Part shown: piece by piece, positions 11,189-16,745 of the stretch
Position numbering within the stretch: the stretch's first letter is position 1
Layout: the number at the start of each line of letters is the position of its first letter
DNA from: Acidobacterium sp. S8
Lineage (GTDB): Bacteria > Acidobacteriota > Terriglobia > Terriglobales > Acidobacteriaceae
NCBI RefSeq assembly: GCF_009765985.1
Contig: NZ_LMUM01000014.1
Coordinates: forward strand, 1 to 64,000
Reading direction: 5' to 3'
Length of the DNA stretch: 64,000 nucleotides
The notes under the pieces: model-generated
What the model saw: only the letters and a program-made list of their open reading frames with translations
What the model was told of the DNA's origin: nothing
Databases searched by the model: none
Position numbers and translations under genes: made by a program

Positions 11189-12562
11189 TTATTCTCCAGC
11201 GATGGTCATGCCGTCGATGCGCAGAGTGGGAGAAGCTACAGAGCCGCGAAAATCAAGATCGTTGCCGATAGCTGTGATGTTGCGGAACATGTCTTTGAGA
11301 TTACCGGCAACGGTCACTTCCTGTACTGGGTAGGTCAGCTCGCCGTTCTCGATCCATAGCCCGGAGGCGCCACGCGAGTAATCGCCTGTGACCATGTTGA
11401 CTCCCTGGCCGAGAAGCTCCGTGACGTAGAAGCCACTCTCGACTTCCCGCAAAATTTCTTCAGGCGACAGCTTGCCTGCTTCAAGATAGAGATTGCCACT
11501 ACTGATACCAGGATTACCTGCGAGTCCTCGAACAGCATTGCCGGTGCTTTGCATGTTGAGCTTGCGCGCGGTGTAGGTATTCAGCAGGTAGGTTTTGAGA
11601 ACGCCGTTTTCGACGATGACTTTACGGCGCGTTGGCAGGCCCTCGCCGTCGAATGGTGAGGAACCGTATCCACCGACAATCGTTCCGTCATCAATCACAT
11701 TGATCGATTCGGCCGCCACCTGCTCCCCAAGTTTTCCGGTAAAGAAAGATGCGCCGCGATAGATGCTGTCTCCGTTGGCTGCTTCGAAGATCGCTCCAAT
11801 GAGCGAGCGTGCAATTTCCGGTGCAAAAACAATTGGGGCTCGCTGCGTTGGAATGCGGCGTCCGTCAAGCCGTCTCAAAGTACGGCGCGCAGCTTCGGCC
11901 CCTACAGATTCCGGCGAGTCCAGTTTGCCGAGCATTCGTGCTGTGGAATACCAGTAATCGCGTTGCATTTCGCCATTCTTGCTCATGGCGATAGGGCTCG
12001 TCGAAACGGAGCAATAGGAAGAGAGGTATTCGCCAACGAAGCCGCGGGAATTAGCAAATACTTTGCGGCCAGTGGCTGCATCGAAGGTGCCCCCATCGCT
12101 ATTCTGGATGCGGGTATCGGCGGACATGGCCGCAGCTTCGCAGCGGCGGGCATATTCGATGCGCTCGGCGGTCGGAAGCGAGTAAACGTCGTCGTGATAA
12201 AGATTGAGATCGAAGTCGACCTGGCCGAATTCGGCGGCATCGGCTAGTCCTACGAAAGGATCTTCCGATGTAACACTGGCCAATCCGAGAGCGCCTGAGA
12301 TGAGGTGACGGATGCCGTCTTCTGTGAAGTCGCTGGAAGATGTGCTGGCGACGCGCTGACCGACGAAGACACGCAGGCCGATGCCGCGTGAGCCCGATTC
12401 TTTCAGCGTTTCCACCTCGCCAAGACGGACTGTAGTTGAGAACTCGTCGCCTTCGCGGATGACAACTTCTGCGTCGGTCGCTCCGGCTTTGCGTGCTTGT
12501 GTAACGATGTCGGTTGCTAGTTGCTGGAGGTCAGTGGTGGCTTCAGTTGTCAGACTGCTCAT
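11189..12562 (-). CDS. pmbA: PmbA/TldE-family metalloprotease subunit
   Basis: The 457-residue partner of TldD. The TldD-TldE heterodimer is a zinc protease that trims unfolded or small peptides such as modified microcin precursors. The sequence has the family fold and Gly-rich C-terminus (TGDYSRGASGLWIENGELTY) and lacks the HExxxH motif, as expected for the TldE/PmbA subunit. Its start overlaps the end of the 100-residue zinc-ribbon gene by 20 bases, and tldD lies just upstream, so all three are one minus-strand operon. Confidence 0.93.
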   Translation of the reverse strand: MSSLTTEATTDLQQLATDIVTQARKAGATDAEVVIREGDEFSTTVRLGEVETLKESGSRGIGLRVFVGQRVASTSSSDFTEDGIRHLISGALGLASVTSEDPFVGLADAAEFGQVDFDLNLYHDDVYSLPTAERIEYARRCEAAAMSADTRIQNSDGGTFDAATGRKVFANSRGFVGEYLSSYCSVSTSPIAMSKNGEMQRDYWYSTARMLGKLDSPESVGAEAARRTLRRLDGRRIPTQRAPIVFAPEIARSLIGAIFEAANGDSIYRGASFFTGKLGEQVAAESINVIDDGTIVGGYGSSPFDGEGLPTRRKVIVENGVLKTYLLNTYTARKLNMQSTGNAVRGLAGNPGISSGNLYLEAGKLSPEEILREVESGFYVTELLGQGVNMVTGDYSRGASGLWIENGELTYPVQEVTVAGNLKDMFRNITAIGNDLDFRGSVASPTLRIDGMTIAGE

Positions 12563-12845
12563 TTATGCTTTTCTCATCTGGTTCAATCGGGTTCGCAGCG
12601 AGACGCTTTACCCCGTCAAAATGGTTACCTAAAGAACAGCCAGGATTTTTCTTCTTATGCTCTGCTCTGTCAGGCATTGCTTCATCTGCCGATCGACGAA
12701 AGAGCCCAACGGCTCCCTTGCATTCAGGGCACCGCAGGCGTGGCTCAGCCAGCTTGAGTGCATCGGCTGCAAAGATGGTTTGCCAGGCGTAGCCGCGCTC
12801 TCCATTAGGAAGCATCACGAATTGTTTTACATCTACTGTTCTCAT
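12543..12845 (-). CDS. Small zinc-ribbon-like protein between tldD and pmbA
   Basis: A 100-residue protein with a CPEC knuckle near residue 39 and a second half rich in His and Cys (AEHKKKNPGCSLGNHFDG), resembling the zinc-binding region of CoiA-like and related small hypothetical proteins. Start and stop fit tightly: the ATG lies three bases after the tldD stop, and its end overlaps the pmbA start by 20 bases, which supports translation. Function is unknown; it may be a zinc-binding accessory factor or be co-transcribed by chance. Confidence 0.72.
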   Translation of the reverse strand: MRTVDVKQFVMLPNGERGYAWQTIFAADALKLAEPRLRCPECKGAVGLFRRSADEAMPDRAEHKKKNPGCSLGNHFDGVKRLAANPIEPDEKSINEQSDN

Positions 12846-12848
12846 CTA

Positions 12849-14288
12849 TTACTGTCCAGTACCACCGACCGTCATGCGGTCAAGTTTTATTGTAGGCATG
12901 CCAACGCCGACGGGAACACTCTGGCCGTCTTTGCCACAGGTGCCAACACCTTCATCGAGTTGGAGGTCATGGCCAATCATCGAGACGTATTTCAATGCTT
13001 CGGGGCCGTTACCGATAAGCGTAGCATCGCGCACTGGCGCCGTGATCTTGCCGTCTTCGATCAGATACGCCTCTGATGCGCTGAAGACAAACTTGCCGCT
13101 GGTAATATCGACCGAGCCTCCGCCAAAGTTCACCGCATAGAGTCCTCGTTTGACGCTGCGTAAAATATCTTCCGGAGCGTCATCGCCAGCGAGCATATAG
13201 GTATTGGTCATACGGGGCATCGGAATTTGCTGATAGCTTTCACGGCGTCCGTTGCCAGTGTGAGGCATGTTCATGAGGCGCGCGGAGAGCTTATCGCTTA
13301 AATAGCCTTTGAGGATGCCGTTTTCGATGAGCACAGTTTCCTGCGTGGGCGAGCCTTCATCGTCGACATTTAATGAACCGCGACGGGAAGGCATGGTGCC
13401 GTTGTCGACGACTGTGACCTTTGAGCTGGCGACCTGACGACCGATGAGTCCGGCGAATGCCGAGGTTTTTTTGCGGTTGAAATCAGCTTCGAGCCCGTGC
13501 CCCACAGCTTCATGCAACAGCACCCCAGGCCAGCCGGGTCCGAGCACAACTTCCATTTCTCCGGCAGGTGCGGCGACAGCGCCGAGTTGTAGAATGGCCG
13601 TACGTGCGGCTTCCGTGGCGAAGTGCTCCGGTGTTTTTTCGCTAAGGAAATAGCTGATATCAACGCGGCCGCCGCCGCCGCCAGTGCCGCGAGTCGTCTG
13701 CTGACCGTCGTTGGCGAGAACAAAGACATTCAAACGCGCGAGCGGCTGAGTGTCGCTCGCATAAGTGCCGTCAGAGGCAGCGATAAGAATGCGTTTCAGC
13801 TCATCCGAGTAACTGGCGCGTACCTGCTTGATGCGCGTGTCGTAGGCCCGAGCCGAGCGATCGGCACGCATGACGAGATTAAGCTTGGTGTTGAGATCGG
13901 AGTCAAGATCGGCTGCGGGGATCGGATAGAGATTCGGCGACTGCGTTTCGGTGAACCCGGCAACGGGTTGCCTGGCAGGACCGCTGGCGATAAGCGCGGC
14001 AGTACGCGCGGCGTGCAAAAGGCGGTCGGCCGAAAGATTATCGGTATAGGCATAGCCAGTCCGTTCACCGGAAACAACACGGATGCCGCAACCCGCGCTC
14101 ACGCCCTGGCTGGCCGATTTGACCAGCGATTCGTCGATTCCAATCGAGGTGGCGGAGACCGATTCGAAAAACAGGTCGGCGTAGTCACCTCCCGCGGAAA
14201 GCGCTTCGCCCAGGCAGCGCTCAAGCAGGCGTTCGGAAAGGCCGAATTTTTCAAAGAAATAGCGTTGGTGACCAGTAGATGTCGTCAT
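12849..14288 (-). CDS. tldD: TldD-family metalloprotease, catalytic subunit
   Basis: The 479-residue catalytic subunit of the TldD/TldE peptidase. The zinc-binding HEAVGH motif lies near residue 260 (LLHEAVGHGLEADF) and is followed by the family C-terminal region (NFGGGSVDITSGKFVF). It acts in the cytoplasm with PmbA. It is first in the minus-strand unit tldD, zinc-ribbon gene, pmbA. Upstream and divergent lies the tiny His-rich exported peptide gene. Confidence 0.95.
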   Translation of the reverse strand: MTTSTGHQRYFFEKFGLSERLLERCLGEALSAGGDYADLFFESVSATSIGIDESLVKSASQGVSAGCGIRVVSGERTGYAYTDNLSADRLLHAARTAALIASGPARQPVAGFTETQSPNLYPIPAADLDSDLNTKLNLVMRADRSARAYDTRIKQVRASYSDELKRILIAASDGTYASDTQPLARLNVFVLANDGQQTTRGTGGGGGRVDISYFLSEKTPEHFATEAARTAILQLGAVAAPAGEMEVVLGPGWPGVLLHEAVGHGLEADFNRKKTSAFAGLIGRQVASSKVTVVDNGTMPSRRGSLNVDDEGSPTQETVLIENGILKGYLSDKLSARLMNMPHTGNGRRESYQQIPMPRMTNTYMLAGDDAPEDILRSVKRGLYAVNFGGGSVDITSGKFVFSASEAYLIEDGKITAPVRDATLIGNGPEALKYVSMIGHDLQLDEGVGTCGKDGQSVPVGVGMPTIKLDRMTVGGTGQ

Positions 14289-14439
14289 GAAAAACCTGCT
14301 TATTAGATGAGACGAAGCGTTTCTCCGATTCTACGCTGGTTTTCTGCTCTACCCCTGCAATTAAGAAGGGGCTAACGGGAAAGGTTCCTGCTGCGATTTC
14401 AACAGCTGCACAGCGAATGAGTCTTGCTAGGATCACGGC

Positions 14440-14547
14440 ATGAAGAAACTGATTGTCCTGTCCTTGGTGCTGTTGTTCTCCGCCTCTGCGTTTGCGCAGC
14501 CGCATCATCATCACCACCATCATCGGCATCATCATCGCTCACGATAA
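14440..14547 (+). CDS. 35-residue exported histidine-rich peptide
   Basis: The ATG at 14440 opens a 35-codon frame ending TAA at 14545-14547. The first 20 residues form a textbook signal peptide (two Lys, a Leu/Val core, Ser-Ala-Phe-Ala then Gln). The rest is Pro followed by seven His, Arg, three His, and a basic tail. An AGGA ribosome site sits 7 bases before the ATG. If exported and cleaved, about 16 residues remain, ten of them His, which would bind Ni, Zn or Cu. It is divergent from tldD, whose protease family handles short peptides, and 49 bases upstream of the YfiT-like gene. Expression is unproven. Confidence 0.62.
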   Translation: MKKLIVLSLVLLFSASAFAQPHHHHHHHRHHHRSR

Positions 14548-14596
14548 CGCGGGCAGGCCGCGTGCCTGCCTGATGTTTCTGTGATATTTTTCGCCT

Positions 14597-15124
14597 ATGA
14601 ACGAAGACCTTCGTTATCCCGTTGGTGACTTTGCAGGCCCTGTCGAGCAGGACCCGCAGCAACGTCATTCCAACATCTCCATTCTTGCTGCCTTGCCCGA
14701 AAATCTCCGTTCCGCCGTCCTTGGGCTGACTGACCAGCAGCTCGATACGTCTTATCGCGAGGGTGGATGGACGGTTCGCCAGTTGGTGCACCACGTTGCC
14801 GACAGCCATATCAACGCATATGTGCGTACACGCCGTGCGCTAACCGAAGATTGGCCGCTGGTGAGCGCCTACGACGAAAAGCTGTGGGCTGAGCTACCGG
14901 ATGCGACTACGTTGCCGATTGAAGTTTCACTGCATCTGCTGGAGCCGCTGCACCGCCGCTGGGTGGCGCTGTTCGAGTCTTTGACTGAGGAGCAATGGCA
15001 GCGCGGCTATGTGCACTCTGAAAACGGACGCCAGAAGCTGGCCGAGGTCATTCAAGCCTATGCGTGGCACTGCCGGCACCATGTGGCGCATGTTACCGAA
15101 TTGCGGAAGCGCATGGGCTGGTAG
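14597..15124 (+). CDS. DinB/YfiT-family metal-dependent protein (putative thiol transferase)
   Basis: A 175-residue four-helix protein of the DinB/YfiT group. The YREGGWTVRQLVHHVADSH stretch and the later WHCRHHVAHV carry the three conserved His metal ligands. YfiT/BstA-type proteins are metal-dependent, glutathione-S-transferase-like enzymes linked to bacillithiol or, in earlier annotation, hydrolases. Length is normal. The thiol cofactor in this organism is unknown, so the substrate is left open. Confidence 0.85.
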   Translation: MNEDLRYPVGDFAGPVEQDPQQRHSNISILAALPENLRSAVLGLTDQQLDTSYREGGWTVRQLVHHVADSHINAYVRTRRALTEDWPLVSAYDEKLWAELPDATTLPIEVSLHLLEPLHRRWVALFESLTEEQWQRGYVHSENGRQKLAEVIQAYAWHCRHHVAHVTELRKRMGW

Positions 15125-15170: not shown

Positions 15171-16745
15171 ATGCCCCTTGCAAAGATCGAAACTCCTGCA
15201 ATCGAGCTCGCGTGCATGCTGGAGGCGTTTCTGGCCGAGCATCCGGGTGCTGCGGTGCTTGAAGACGGACGTGTCATCTTCGAGATGCAGGCTGCACATT
15301 ATTCGATCTCCTCTGAGCATGGCCGTTGCGTGATGCATATCTGGTCAGAAGACCGTAACATGGTGCGTACAGTCACAGATGTCAGCGCACGCAAGAATAC
15401 GATCCGCATCGAGACGCGGCGTTTTGGGCAAAGCAATCCGCAGTCGCTGCAGCTAGTTCCTGATCGTGATACACGAACCCCTACCACGCGAGAGGCTACG
15501 CGGAAAAAATATTTGCGCCTACTTGAGCGCGTGTTAACGCGTGCTTTTCCTGATCTCAGTCTCGATAGTCTAGGGAATGCGATCGACCTGGAACATAGCT
15601 TCGGACCTGCATATGCGCGCGGAACACTGGTTCGCGGACAGAAAGCCTGGGCAGTGATTGCGGTCAATGGCGAGGAGACACAGGCAACCGTCGATGGCGC
15701 GTTGACGCTGGGGATTCTGTGGCTGGCATACTGCCGCGAGCACAGTGGCGGAAGACGCGTTTTTGAAGGCCTGAAAGTGATCGTACCCGCCGGTGCAGCT
15801 GCGGTAACTCGCGGACGCATGGCATGGTTGAATCCGGCGCTCGCCAAGTGGGAATTGTATGAACTGGACGAGCGCTGCGAGACGCTGGACACTTCACAAG
15901 TAGGCGATGAGGGGAATCTCGATATCAGGTTGGTGCACAACTTCAGCCACGATCGTGGGATCGAACGATCGCAGCAGGCCATTGATCATTTGCTCGGCTT
16001 GTTGCCTGGTGGAATGAAATCACGGACGGAAGTCCGTGCGCTCAGCTCCACTGAGATCAGCTTCCGCCTGTATGGGCTGGAGTTTGCGCGCATCCGGCAT
16101 GGAGTGACGGCGGGATCGTTTTCACGGCAGGACGCGATCACCTTTGGCGCAGGTGTACACGAGACTCCGCTGACAGATGAGACGGAAGACTTATTCCGTG
16201 ATCTGATCCGGCGAGTGTGTGACGGGCGTGCTCCGGAAGGAAATGTACGTAACCCGCTGTATCGTTTGCAGCCGGAGCGCTGGTTAGAATCGGAATTGAA
16301 ACGCGGCCTTGCGGAGCTGGAGCCTACGATTCGAGAGGATTTTGTTTATACACAGGTGCCTGCATTTGCGGGTGGCGATCGCGGAATGATTGATCTGCTC
16401 AGCGTGACTCGTTCCGGACGGCTGATGGTTTTGGAGCTGAAAGCCGACGATGATTTGCATCTTCCTCTCCAAGGGCTGGATTATTGGCTGCGGGTCCGGC
16501 AGGTACATGCGGCGGGCGAGCTGCAGAAGCATGGCTATTTTGCTGGCGTTGAAGTGTCGAAGGCTCCGCCGCTGCTGCTGCTGGTTGCGCCTGCTCTGAG
16601 GATTCATCCGGCCAATGAGATGGTGCTGCGGTATTTGAAACTGGAAGTGGAGTGGATGCTGGTGGCTCTGGACGAGCACTGGCGGAAGCGGCGAAGGGTT
16701 ATTTTTCGTAAGAGGAATGCCAGCCTTGTGAGCTCCACACTTTGA
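15171..16745 (+). CDS. Uncharacterised protein with PD-(D/E)XK nuclease-like C-terminus
   Basis: A 524-residue cytoplasmic protein with no recognised N-terminal domain. The C-terminal third has the shape of a PD-(D/E)XK nuclease core: an acidic residue in GMIDLLSV, a beta-hairpin, then LMVLELKAD giving the E-x-K pair, then a helix with QGLDYW. Arginines preceding this core (residues 365-390) could bind nucleic acid. It follows the YfiT-like gene on the same strand after 46 bases. A DNA repair or restriction role is possible, but the real substrate is unknown. Confidence 0.7.
   Translation: MPLAKIETPAIELACMLEAFLAEHPGAAVLEDGRVIFEMQAAHYSISSEHGRCVMHIWSEDRNMVRTVTDVSARKNTIRIETRRFGQSNPQSLQLVPDRDTRTPTTREATRKKYLRLLERVLTRAFPDLSLDSLGNAIDLEHSFGPAYARGTLVRGQKAWAVIAVNGEETQATVDGALTLGILWLAYCREHSGGRRVFEGLKVIVPAGAAAVTRGRMAWLNPALAKWELYELDERCETLDTSQVGDEGNLDIRLVHNFSHDRGIERSQQAIDHLLGLLPGGMKSRTEVRALSSTEISFRLYGLEFARIRHGVTAGSFSRQDAITFGAGVHETPLTDETEDLFRDLIRRVCDGRAPEGNVRNPLYRLQPERWLESELKRGLAELEPTIREDFVYTQVPAFAGGDRGMIDLLSVTRSGRLMVLELKADDDLHLPLQGLDYWLRVRQVHAAGELQKHGYFAGVEVSKAPPLLLLVAPALRIHPANEMVLRYLKLEVEWMLVALDEHWRKRRRVIFRKRNASLVSSTL

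Follow-up and report, generated by a model that had tools for sequence, protein, structure and literature searches.

A tiny conserved gene for an exported histidine-rich peptide, probably leaderless and divergent from tldD, in Acidobacteriaceae

The window analysed here, a stretch of 64,000 nt from Acidobacterium sp. S8 (contig NZ_LMUM01000014.1), carries on its forward strand, at 14440-14547, a 35-codon frame whose translation is MKKLIVLSLVLLFSASAFAQPHHHHHHHRHHHRSR followed by a stop codon. The product opens with an n-h-c pattern ending in AFA, recognised by eye and predicted to be a signal peptide, and ten of the 16 residues after it are histidines. Frame, signal peptide and histidine content had been proposed in the original prediction, as had the divergent orientation relative to tldD, and all four were borne out by the translation, the residue pattern and the minus-strand position of tldD. 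The features of the locus, with the evidence for each in brackets, are as follows.

14440-14547, forward strand: gene for the exported His-rich peptide precursor, 35 codons with the stop included (translation; in-frame conservation in relatives)
14440-14496, forward strand: predicted signal peptide, codons 1-19, MKK...SASAFA (n-h-c pattern; residues identical in the genus trio)
14497-14544, forward strand: predicted mature tail QPHHHHHHHRHHHRSR, with 10 His, 3 Arg and 0 acidic residues (translation; tail composition across 64 genes; calculated charge)
14425-14433, forward strand: extended -10 element TGCTAGGAT, which holds the AGGA at 14429-14432; the ATG is the predicted transcription start of a leaderless mRNA (53 of 64 genes)
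14382-14399, forward strand: candidate activator site AGGTTCCTGCTGCGATTT, beginning 58 nt 5' of the ATG (EM motif score 7.3, posterior 0.97, obtained without a shuffled control)
14550-14572, forward strand: terminator-like hairpin directly 3' of the stop codon (pairing still possible in the relatives G001 and G003)
14597-15124, forward strand: dinB/yfiT, bacillithiol-transferase-like, with its own extended -10 and a leaderless-looking start; a neighbour that the peptide can do without
12849-14288, minus strand: tldD, the divergent neighbour, which the peptide can also do without (Pfam PmbA_TldD)

To the left of the peptide gene, beyond tldD, lie a 100-aa open reading frame (12543-12845, minus strand) and then a second gene of the TldD/PmbA type, tldE (11189-12562). 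The 100-aa frame between tldD and tldE contains a CPEC motif, gave no Pfam or NCBIfam match and may encode a small zinc-ribbon protein. To the right, in the same direction as the peptide gene, the product of the DinB/YfiT gene matched the NCBIfam YfiT bacillithiol transferase at 242.6 bits (cut-off 160). It is followed by a gene for a 524-aa protein (15171-16745, forward strand), which had no Pfam or NCBIfam match and adjoins dinB in most of the loci examined.

The search of the genus covered four genomes. The frame was found at the same place in the two relatives G001 and G003, with the first 21 residues identical and with His/Arg tails, and the fourth genome (G002, 59% complete) gave only a distant DinB. 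Across the first 21 codons, the three genus genomes carrying the frame showed 7, 8 and 10 nucleotide differences, all of them synonymous; over codons 2-20 there were no amino-acid differences and 6-10 synonymous ones. When 10 close pairs from several lineages were compared, pN/pS over codons 2-20 was 0.16, a sign of purifying selection on the frame; the remaining forward frames gave 1.02 and 3.54. The histidines of the tails are encoded by CAC (361) and CAT (277) in a set of 63 genes (L176 left out), with the longest run of one identical His codon at most 5, and because the codons are mixed in this way the tract is read as coding and not as a DNA repeat. A chance or DNA-repeat origin of the His tract was ruled out by the pN/pS values and the mixed His codons. 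A comparison with acidobacterial relatives had been proposed as a check, and stop codons breaking the frame in close relatives would have told against it; both the frame and its place beside tldD turned out to be conserved, and in G001 and G003, the genus relatives that have the locus, the frame was intact. Judged from this conservation, the tiny His-rich frame with its predicted export signal is a genuine gene, conserved within part of a single family.

Promoter and tail counts were made on 64 distinct genes, a few of which have no tldD match in the flank (for example L017, L018, L024, L052, L057 and L103). Left out of this set were duplicate loci under two identifiers, the second L143 copy, L153 and L096, as well as the peptides lying outside the tldD slot (L030, L032-L034, L036, L038, L066 and L088-L095) and those with long tails (L116, L120, L134, L140 and L178). 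The element TGnTAnnnT ended 6-7 nt 5' of the ATG in 53 of the 64 genes, compared with 4 of 6400 control positions further upstream, and in eight of the 11 genes lacking the strict form a one-base departure was seen by eye at the same distance from the ATG. The extended -10 was also present in L153, in the second L143 copy and in the long-tail loci L134, L140 and L178, and absent from L116 and L120. Within the window, the same rule fitted 2 of 2082 ATGs, namely those of the peptide gene and of dinB, whose extended -10 TGATATTTT ends 6 nt 5' of its ATG (14582-14599).

With a -10 box 6-7 nt 5' of the ATG, transcription would begin on the start codon or beside it, giving a leaderless mRNA. The peptide mRNA is probably leaderless, and since the extended -10 of dinB ends 6 nt before its ATG, the dinB start looks leaderless too. 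The arrangement that marks leaderless genes, a -10 box abutting the start codon and no ribosome site, was found in 53 of the 64 genes, the start itself being predicted. For three of three acidobacterial genomes, leaderless genes have been described in which a TANNNT element lies some 12 bp before the start (PMC3160421). The AGGA, 7 nt 5' of the ATG, had been taken in the original prediction for a ribosome site. The four letters are indeed there, but they lie inside the TAGGAT of the -10 hexamer, and it is the -10 box, not the AGGA, that relatives keep: a GGAG, GAGG or AGGA core 7-8 nt 5' of the ATG occurred in only 8 of 49 rows, and within the -10 box in the rows printed. The ribosome-site assignment was rejected. 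The peptide gene offers a clean model of a small gene that conserves a -10 box, not a ribosome site, at its start codon. At the other end of the gene, stems of at least 8 pairs were found 3' of the stop in 29 of the 64 genes, where 10.75 were expected, with a mean folding z of -1.67; in G001 and G003 the arms of the hairpin have changed and are, by eye, still capable of pairing.

Further upstream, a motif resembling GTTnCTnnnTTGATTC was found by EM at a posterior of at least 0.9 in 45 of 58 loci, a count made without a shuffled control. It begins 68-73 nt before the ATG in 32 loci, 57-59 nt in six and 81-84 nt in five, with one locus each at 93 and 114 nt; because these offsets step by about one helix turn, the motif is regarded as a candidate activator site. 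When CTTGATTC, combined with the extended -10 and the ATG, was used as a pattern on 16 genomes, 8 hits were obtained, 7 of which were the peptide gene, and the reversed-pattern control gave 0. There was no exact hit in 9 of the 16 genomes, G000 and G001 among them. As the 16 genomes held one hit outside the peptide gene (L203 in G268), no co-regulated genes emerged, and the idea of a shared regulon was dropped.

With the window peptide as the query, 103 of 150 genomes of the family gave some match at E<=10, mostly weak. A 22-row profile (A3) was run on 249 genomes of the order and, by hand count, matched 36 of them at E<=1e-7. One of these, G202, holds a different small peptide (L095), which leaves 35 genomes, spread over 11 of the 62 sampled genera. 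Genes of 35 codons readily escape gene callers, and this one has no match at cut-off in Pfam or NCBIfam, yet among the 62 genera of the order that were sampled it is present in 11 or more. Among 247 genomes of the phylum, matches at E<=1e-11 were confined to three genomes of the same family, and no full-length profile match was found outside it; the best match beyond the family (G500, E 1e-6) covers profile positions 1-22, which are the signal peptide. Short His-rich exported frames (<=75 residues) were absent from the 26 phylum-search loci scanned (L060-L065 and L067-L086). When the best 80 named tldD loci were taken, a choice by which the result applies to close relatives, the peptide was divergent from tldD in 38 of 79 usable loci, and in 0 of 80 in the opposite-strand control; L173, with 36 nt upstream only, was unusable. 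The carriers include Acidipila rosea DSM 103428 (L114) and Acidipila sp. EB88 (L179), together with metagenome-assembled genomes labelled Silvibacterium (L108, L109), Terracidiphilus (L127) and Acidobacterium (L111, L112, L167). In five more loci (L116, L120, L134, L140 and L178) the same tldD slot is occupied by a longer basic exported peptide, and the place beside tldD was without a peptide in loci from named Edaphobacter and Granulicella genomes (for example L122, L123, L125, L160, L165 and L170). One genome, G214, has a slot copy (L097) and, on a short contig where neither tldD nor dinB was matched, a second copy of the peptide (L096).

The neighbours of the peptide are not constant. Two genomes, G020 (one contig) and G090 (about 70 contigs), each estimated to be 100% complete, keep the peptide before dinB and had no TldD/TldE match at E<=1e-3; they were the two among 15 genomes tested in which it was absent. 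Both belong to genus g18 (loci L018 and L017, respectively), where the gene order is otherwise kept, and the absence in the tested g18 genomes is apparently a lineage loss of a widespread protease pair. In L021, L051 and L059 the peptide adjoins tldD and there is no DinB match in the fetched flank, and the order tldD-dinB also occurs without the peptide, for example in L117 and L174. Because peptide, tldD and dinB occur without each other, the neighbourhood is best read as inherited gene order.

These loci bear directly on the working relation to TldD/TldE that had been suggested for the peptide, in which the pair would trim or degrade it as a substrate or partner. Although tldD is the divergent neighbour in most peptide-carrying loci, the two g18 genomes carry the peptide without a TldD/E match, on which ground a dependence on TldD/E was rejected, and many tldD loci, including named ones of Edaphobacter and Granulicella, have no adjacent peptide. 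Moreover, the carA-type peptides described below sit elsewhere, and the mature peptide should be outside the cytoplasm, away from TldD/E, which is a cytoplasmic pair. Such a partnership is scarcely credible. TldD/E is reported to take and degrade unfolded peptides whatever their sequence (PMC5810440), so the pair may act on stray precursor, though such an effect is not needed.

The position of dinB raises another explanation, a regulatory leader or arrest peptide, in which translation of the signal peptide and the His tract would sense secretion or histidine supply and control the downstream gene. The leader of the his operon carries a His tract, to which that of the peptide bears a resemblance; in addition, a hairpin follows the stop and dinB lies downstream in the same direction. 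However, dinB in the window is preceded by an extended -10 of its own and looks leaderless, the dinB match begins anywhere from about 150 to 706 nt beyond the ATG of the peptide, L021, L051 and L059 have no DinB match in the fetched flank, and His has been lost from the tails in some loci. A his-operon-style leader or arrest peptide was rejected on the variable distance, the window promoter of dinB and the loci without a nearby dinB match, and we consider such a role very improbable.

The composition of the tails is unusual in several respects. Among the 64 genes, there were no acidic residues in 57 tails, one in six and five in one; all tails together hold a single Cys, and the His share has a median of 0.46 (range 0.21-0.69), with Arg or Lys beside His in most, although these figures include some signal-peptide residues because the rule for the cleavage point is crude. 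HHH and HHR runs occur in the tails of many relatives. Longer tails with HPK-like repeats were also found (for example in L121, L128, L148, L150, L151 and L154), and those of L116 and L120 are rich in Lys and Arg, with 7-8 His in about 66 residues. The tails vary quickly across lineages and the signal peptide changes less. Since some tails in the same slot are Lys/Arg-rich, a positive charge free of acidic residues is the more constant feature and the density of His the less constant one. Calculated with standard pKa values, the window tail carries a net charge of +3.2 at pH 7.5, +11.3 at pH 5.5 and +12.9 at pH 4.5, and the all-His tail of L012 (11 His, no Lys or Arg) has almost zero charge at neutral pH. 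In L143, tandem copies with a poly-His and an HPK tail (174 and 463 in the tldD-upstream orientation) each have their own extended -10; they are likely a bridge between the two tail types.

Known families gave little by way of a match. The window peptide matched 0 Pfam-A families at E<=0.001, and among 10 long relatives searched against Pfam-A at E<=10 there were sub-threshold matches for 2. No NCBIfam match at cut-off was obtained for three genus members or for the 10 long relatives, L178 being scanned against both collections from an internal Met. The best NCBIfam match of the three genus members was the VPA0510 family (NF052668; E 0.00056 to 0.0047, 17.5-20.5 bits), with the window peptide at E 0.0012 and 19.3 bits, but this is a 110-residue, unrelated-looking family whose cut-off of 95 bits lies far above. 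The acid-shock family Asr (NF033636) gave no match in the three genus members, and it was the best NCBIfam match of one of the 10 long relatives, L121 (E 0.0045, 17.8 bits vs a cut-off of 50). The best match of another long relative, L140, was to HdeA, an acid-activated chaperone, and was likewise far under the cut-off (E 0.0041). The family BRANT (NF047414), which is likewise small, His-rich and of unassigned function, was matched by the second L143 copy (E 0.0017, 19.4 bits) and by the window peptide (E 0.15, 13.1 bits), both below its cut-off of 44, and the phrase "His-rich protein BRANT" gave no match in the literature searched. Sub-threshold matches of this sort owe most of their score to the signal peptide. 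While other small exported peptides, His-rich or basic, have been described, this family with its probably leaderless setting is new as far as the literature searched shows; among the matches listed, with titles and the starts of abstracts as the source, there was no such peptide in Acidobacteria.

Among functionally known proteins, Hpn and Hpn-like, the small cytosolic His-rich nickel proteins of Helicobacter, resemble the window peptide in being small and extremely rich in His, and differ from it in their cytosolic location, given its predicted signal peptide, and in the Arg and Lys of its tail. A related function would be that of a periplasmic metal buffer, in which Cu(II), Zn(II) or Ni(II) would be bound by the poly-His tail after export and be stored, detoxified or passed on to transporters or metalloenzymes. 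A metal chaperone or a metal-scavenging peptide had been suggested in the original prediction; the pattern of charges in the tails suits an acid-protectant polycation no less well. By established chemistry, poly-His binds all three ions, and ten His in 16 residues, with HHH and HHR runs in many relatives, would suit such a task; the neighbours TldD and DinB/YfiT also belong to metal-dependent families, the DinB family using metal. On the other hand, no obvious metal transporter, regulator or handling gene was seen by eye in the listed flanking frames of the tldD-type and carA-type genes, and the tails are almost without the Asp, Glu and Cys that many known metal-binding His loops carry. In addition, some peptides in the same slot are rich in Lys and Arg with little His, and at acid pH a protonated His is a poor ligand for Zn and Ni. 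We hold the metal buffer to be a serious contender, at somewhat worse than even odds; if correct, it would make the peptide one of the smallest dedicated exported metal buffers.

The histatins, short His-rich cationic peptides of animals with a pH-dependent charge, suggest a third possibility, namely that the peptide leaves the cell and inhibits competitors at acid pH. It shares with them the short length, the richness in His, Arg and Lys and the pH-dependent charge; it would be cationic at acid pH, with few hydrophobic and almost no acidic residues, and the quick divergence of the tails between lineages, greater than that of the signal peptide, would suit such a role. However, no immunity, transporter or modification gene was recognised by eye beside the peptide in the listed loci, the tail has no amphipathic character, and the gene occupies a single inherited slot instead of showing a patchy spread. 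A secreted inhibitor is accordingly placed among the improbable explanations.

The reading that we favour, at a probability of roughly 40%, is that the peptide is an envelope polycation charged at acid pH, which would work by analogy with the acid-shock protein Asr. It builds on what was observed of the gene, its conservation, the selection on its frame, its promoter pattern and the composition of its tail. In the proposed sequence of events, the dedicated extended -10 promoter, probably activator-driven, would give a leaderless monocistronic mRNA, and the 35-residue precursor would be exported by the Sec pathway. Cleavage by signal peptidase I after AFA would then free some 16 residues, almost exclusively His and Arg, as a disordered peptide. 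Once it is beyond the inner membrane, a falling pH would protonate the imidazoles (pKa near 6), and the net charge would climb from roughly +3 (pH 7.5) to roughly +11 (pH 5.5), turning the peptide into a dense polycation. This polycation may shield soluble proteins or parts of the envelope and may make a minor contribution to proton buffering, its action resembling that of the basic, disordered Asr of enterics without any relatedness to Asr.

The polycation reading is favoured because an acid periplasm protonates His, because no metal genes were recognised by eye in the listed neighbourhoods, because acidic residues are avoided and because some homologues swap His for Lys and Arg, and it is placed narrowly ahead of the metal buffer. 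Cultured relatives of these bacteria include acid-soil species. Asr itself is of low complexity, with His and Lys and with Lys-Ala-Gln repeats. An Asr-type layout, a signal peptide followed by a basic low-complexity tail, was found in the window peptide, with the signal peptide recognised by pattern. Both are small, exported, strongly basic and of relevance in acid surroundings; Asr is reported to be a disordered periplasmic chaperone, induced about 1000-fold at pH 4.4 (PMC10746267). Growth at pH 3.7-6.0 is given for one cultured species of Terriglobales (PMC12935467). The differences are that Asr is enterobacterial, from another phylum, and that the window peptide has a His-Arg tail in place of the Lys-Ala-Gln repeats and is probably leaderless. 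Its mature form is also far shorter than Asr, which counts against the polycation reading, and a metal ligand might just as well have such a composition. Further points against it are that the all-His tail of L012 is nearly uncharged at neutral pH and that proton buffering by so small a peptide would need great abundance. The sub-threshold matches of L121 to Asr and of L140 to HdeA would agree with the polycation reading and prove nothing. If the reading is true, the peptide would stand for a minimal kind of acid protection, used by bacteria that are noted for tolerating acid.

A different exported His/Arg peptide, of about 39-42 residues (profile A4, the first row of which is without its first residue), was found in two other genera of the family, g35 and g65. 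Of 10 loci of this type tested, 8 had carA within the fetched flank, and several show, by eye, a Shine-Dalgarno-like purine stretch before the start and a T-run hairpin after the stop. The carA-linked peptide thus resembles that of the tldD slot in having a signal peptide, a His/Arg-rich tail and, in several, a hairpin after the stop, and differs from it in the signal peptide itself, in the carA neighbour and in the Shine-Dalgarno-like stretch. Profile A4 matched 43 of 249 genomes at E<=1e-7, from g35, g65 and, in one case, g32 (hand count). The strong hits (E<=1e-7) of the two kinds have no genome in common (43 vs 36) and the weaker hits overlap; since this partition follows genera, it is not independent evidence. 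A broader proposal, which we regard as speculative and rather unlikely, is that the Acidobacteriaceae have their own class of minimal envelope protectants, poly-His peptides about neutral to weakly basic at pH 7 and dense polycations in acid. These would have arisen at at least two separate loci, the tldD-dinB slot and carA, the first expressed from a dedicated leaderless, activator-controlled promoter, and one kind would occur as if replacing the other. The His/Arg peptide loci near carA are L066, L088, L089, L090, L092, L093, L094 and L038, with a tandem pair in L038. Short exported His-rich peptides were also seen at other loci in genera g41 and g47 (L030, L032, L033 and L034), with hairpin-like sequence after the stop and with neighbours that we take to be MFS transporter-like genes or pyrE-like together with methylthioribose-1-phosphate isomerase-like genes.
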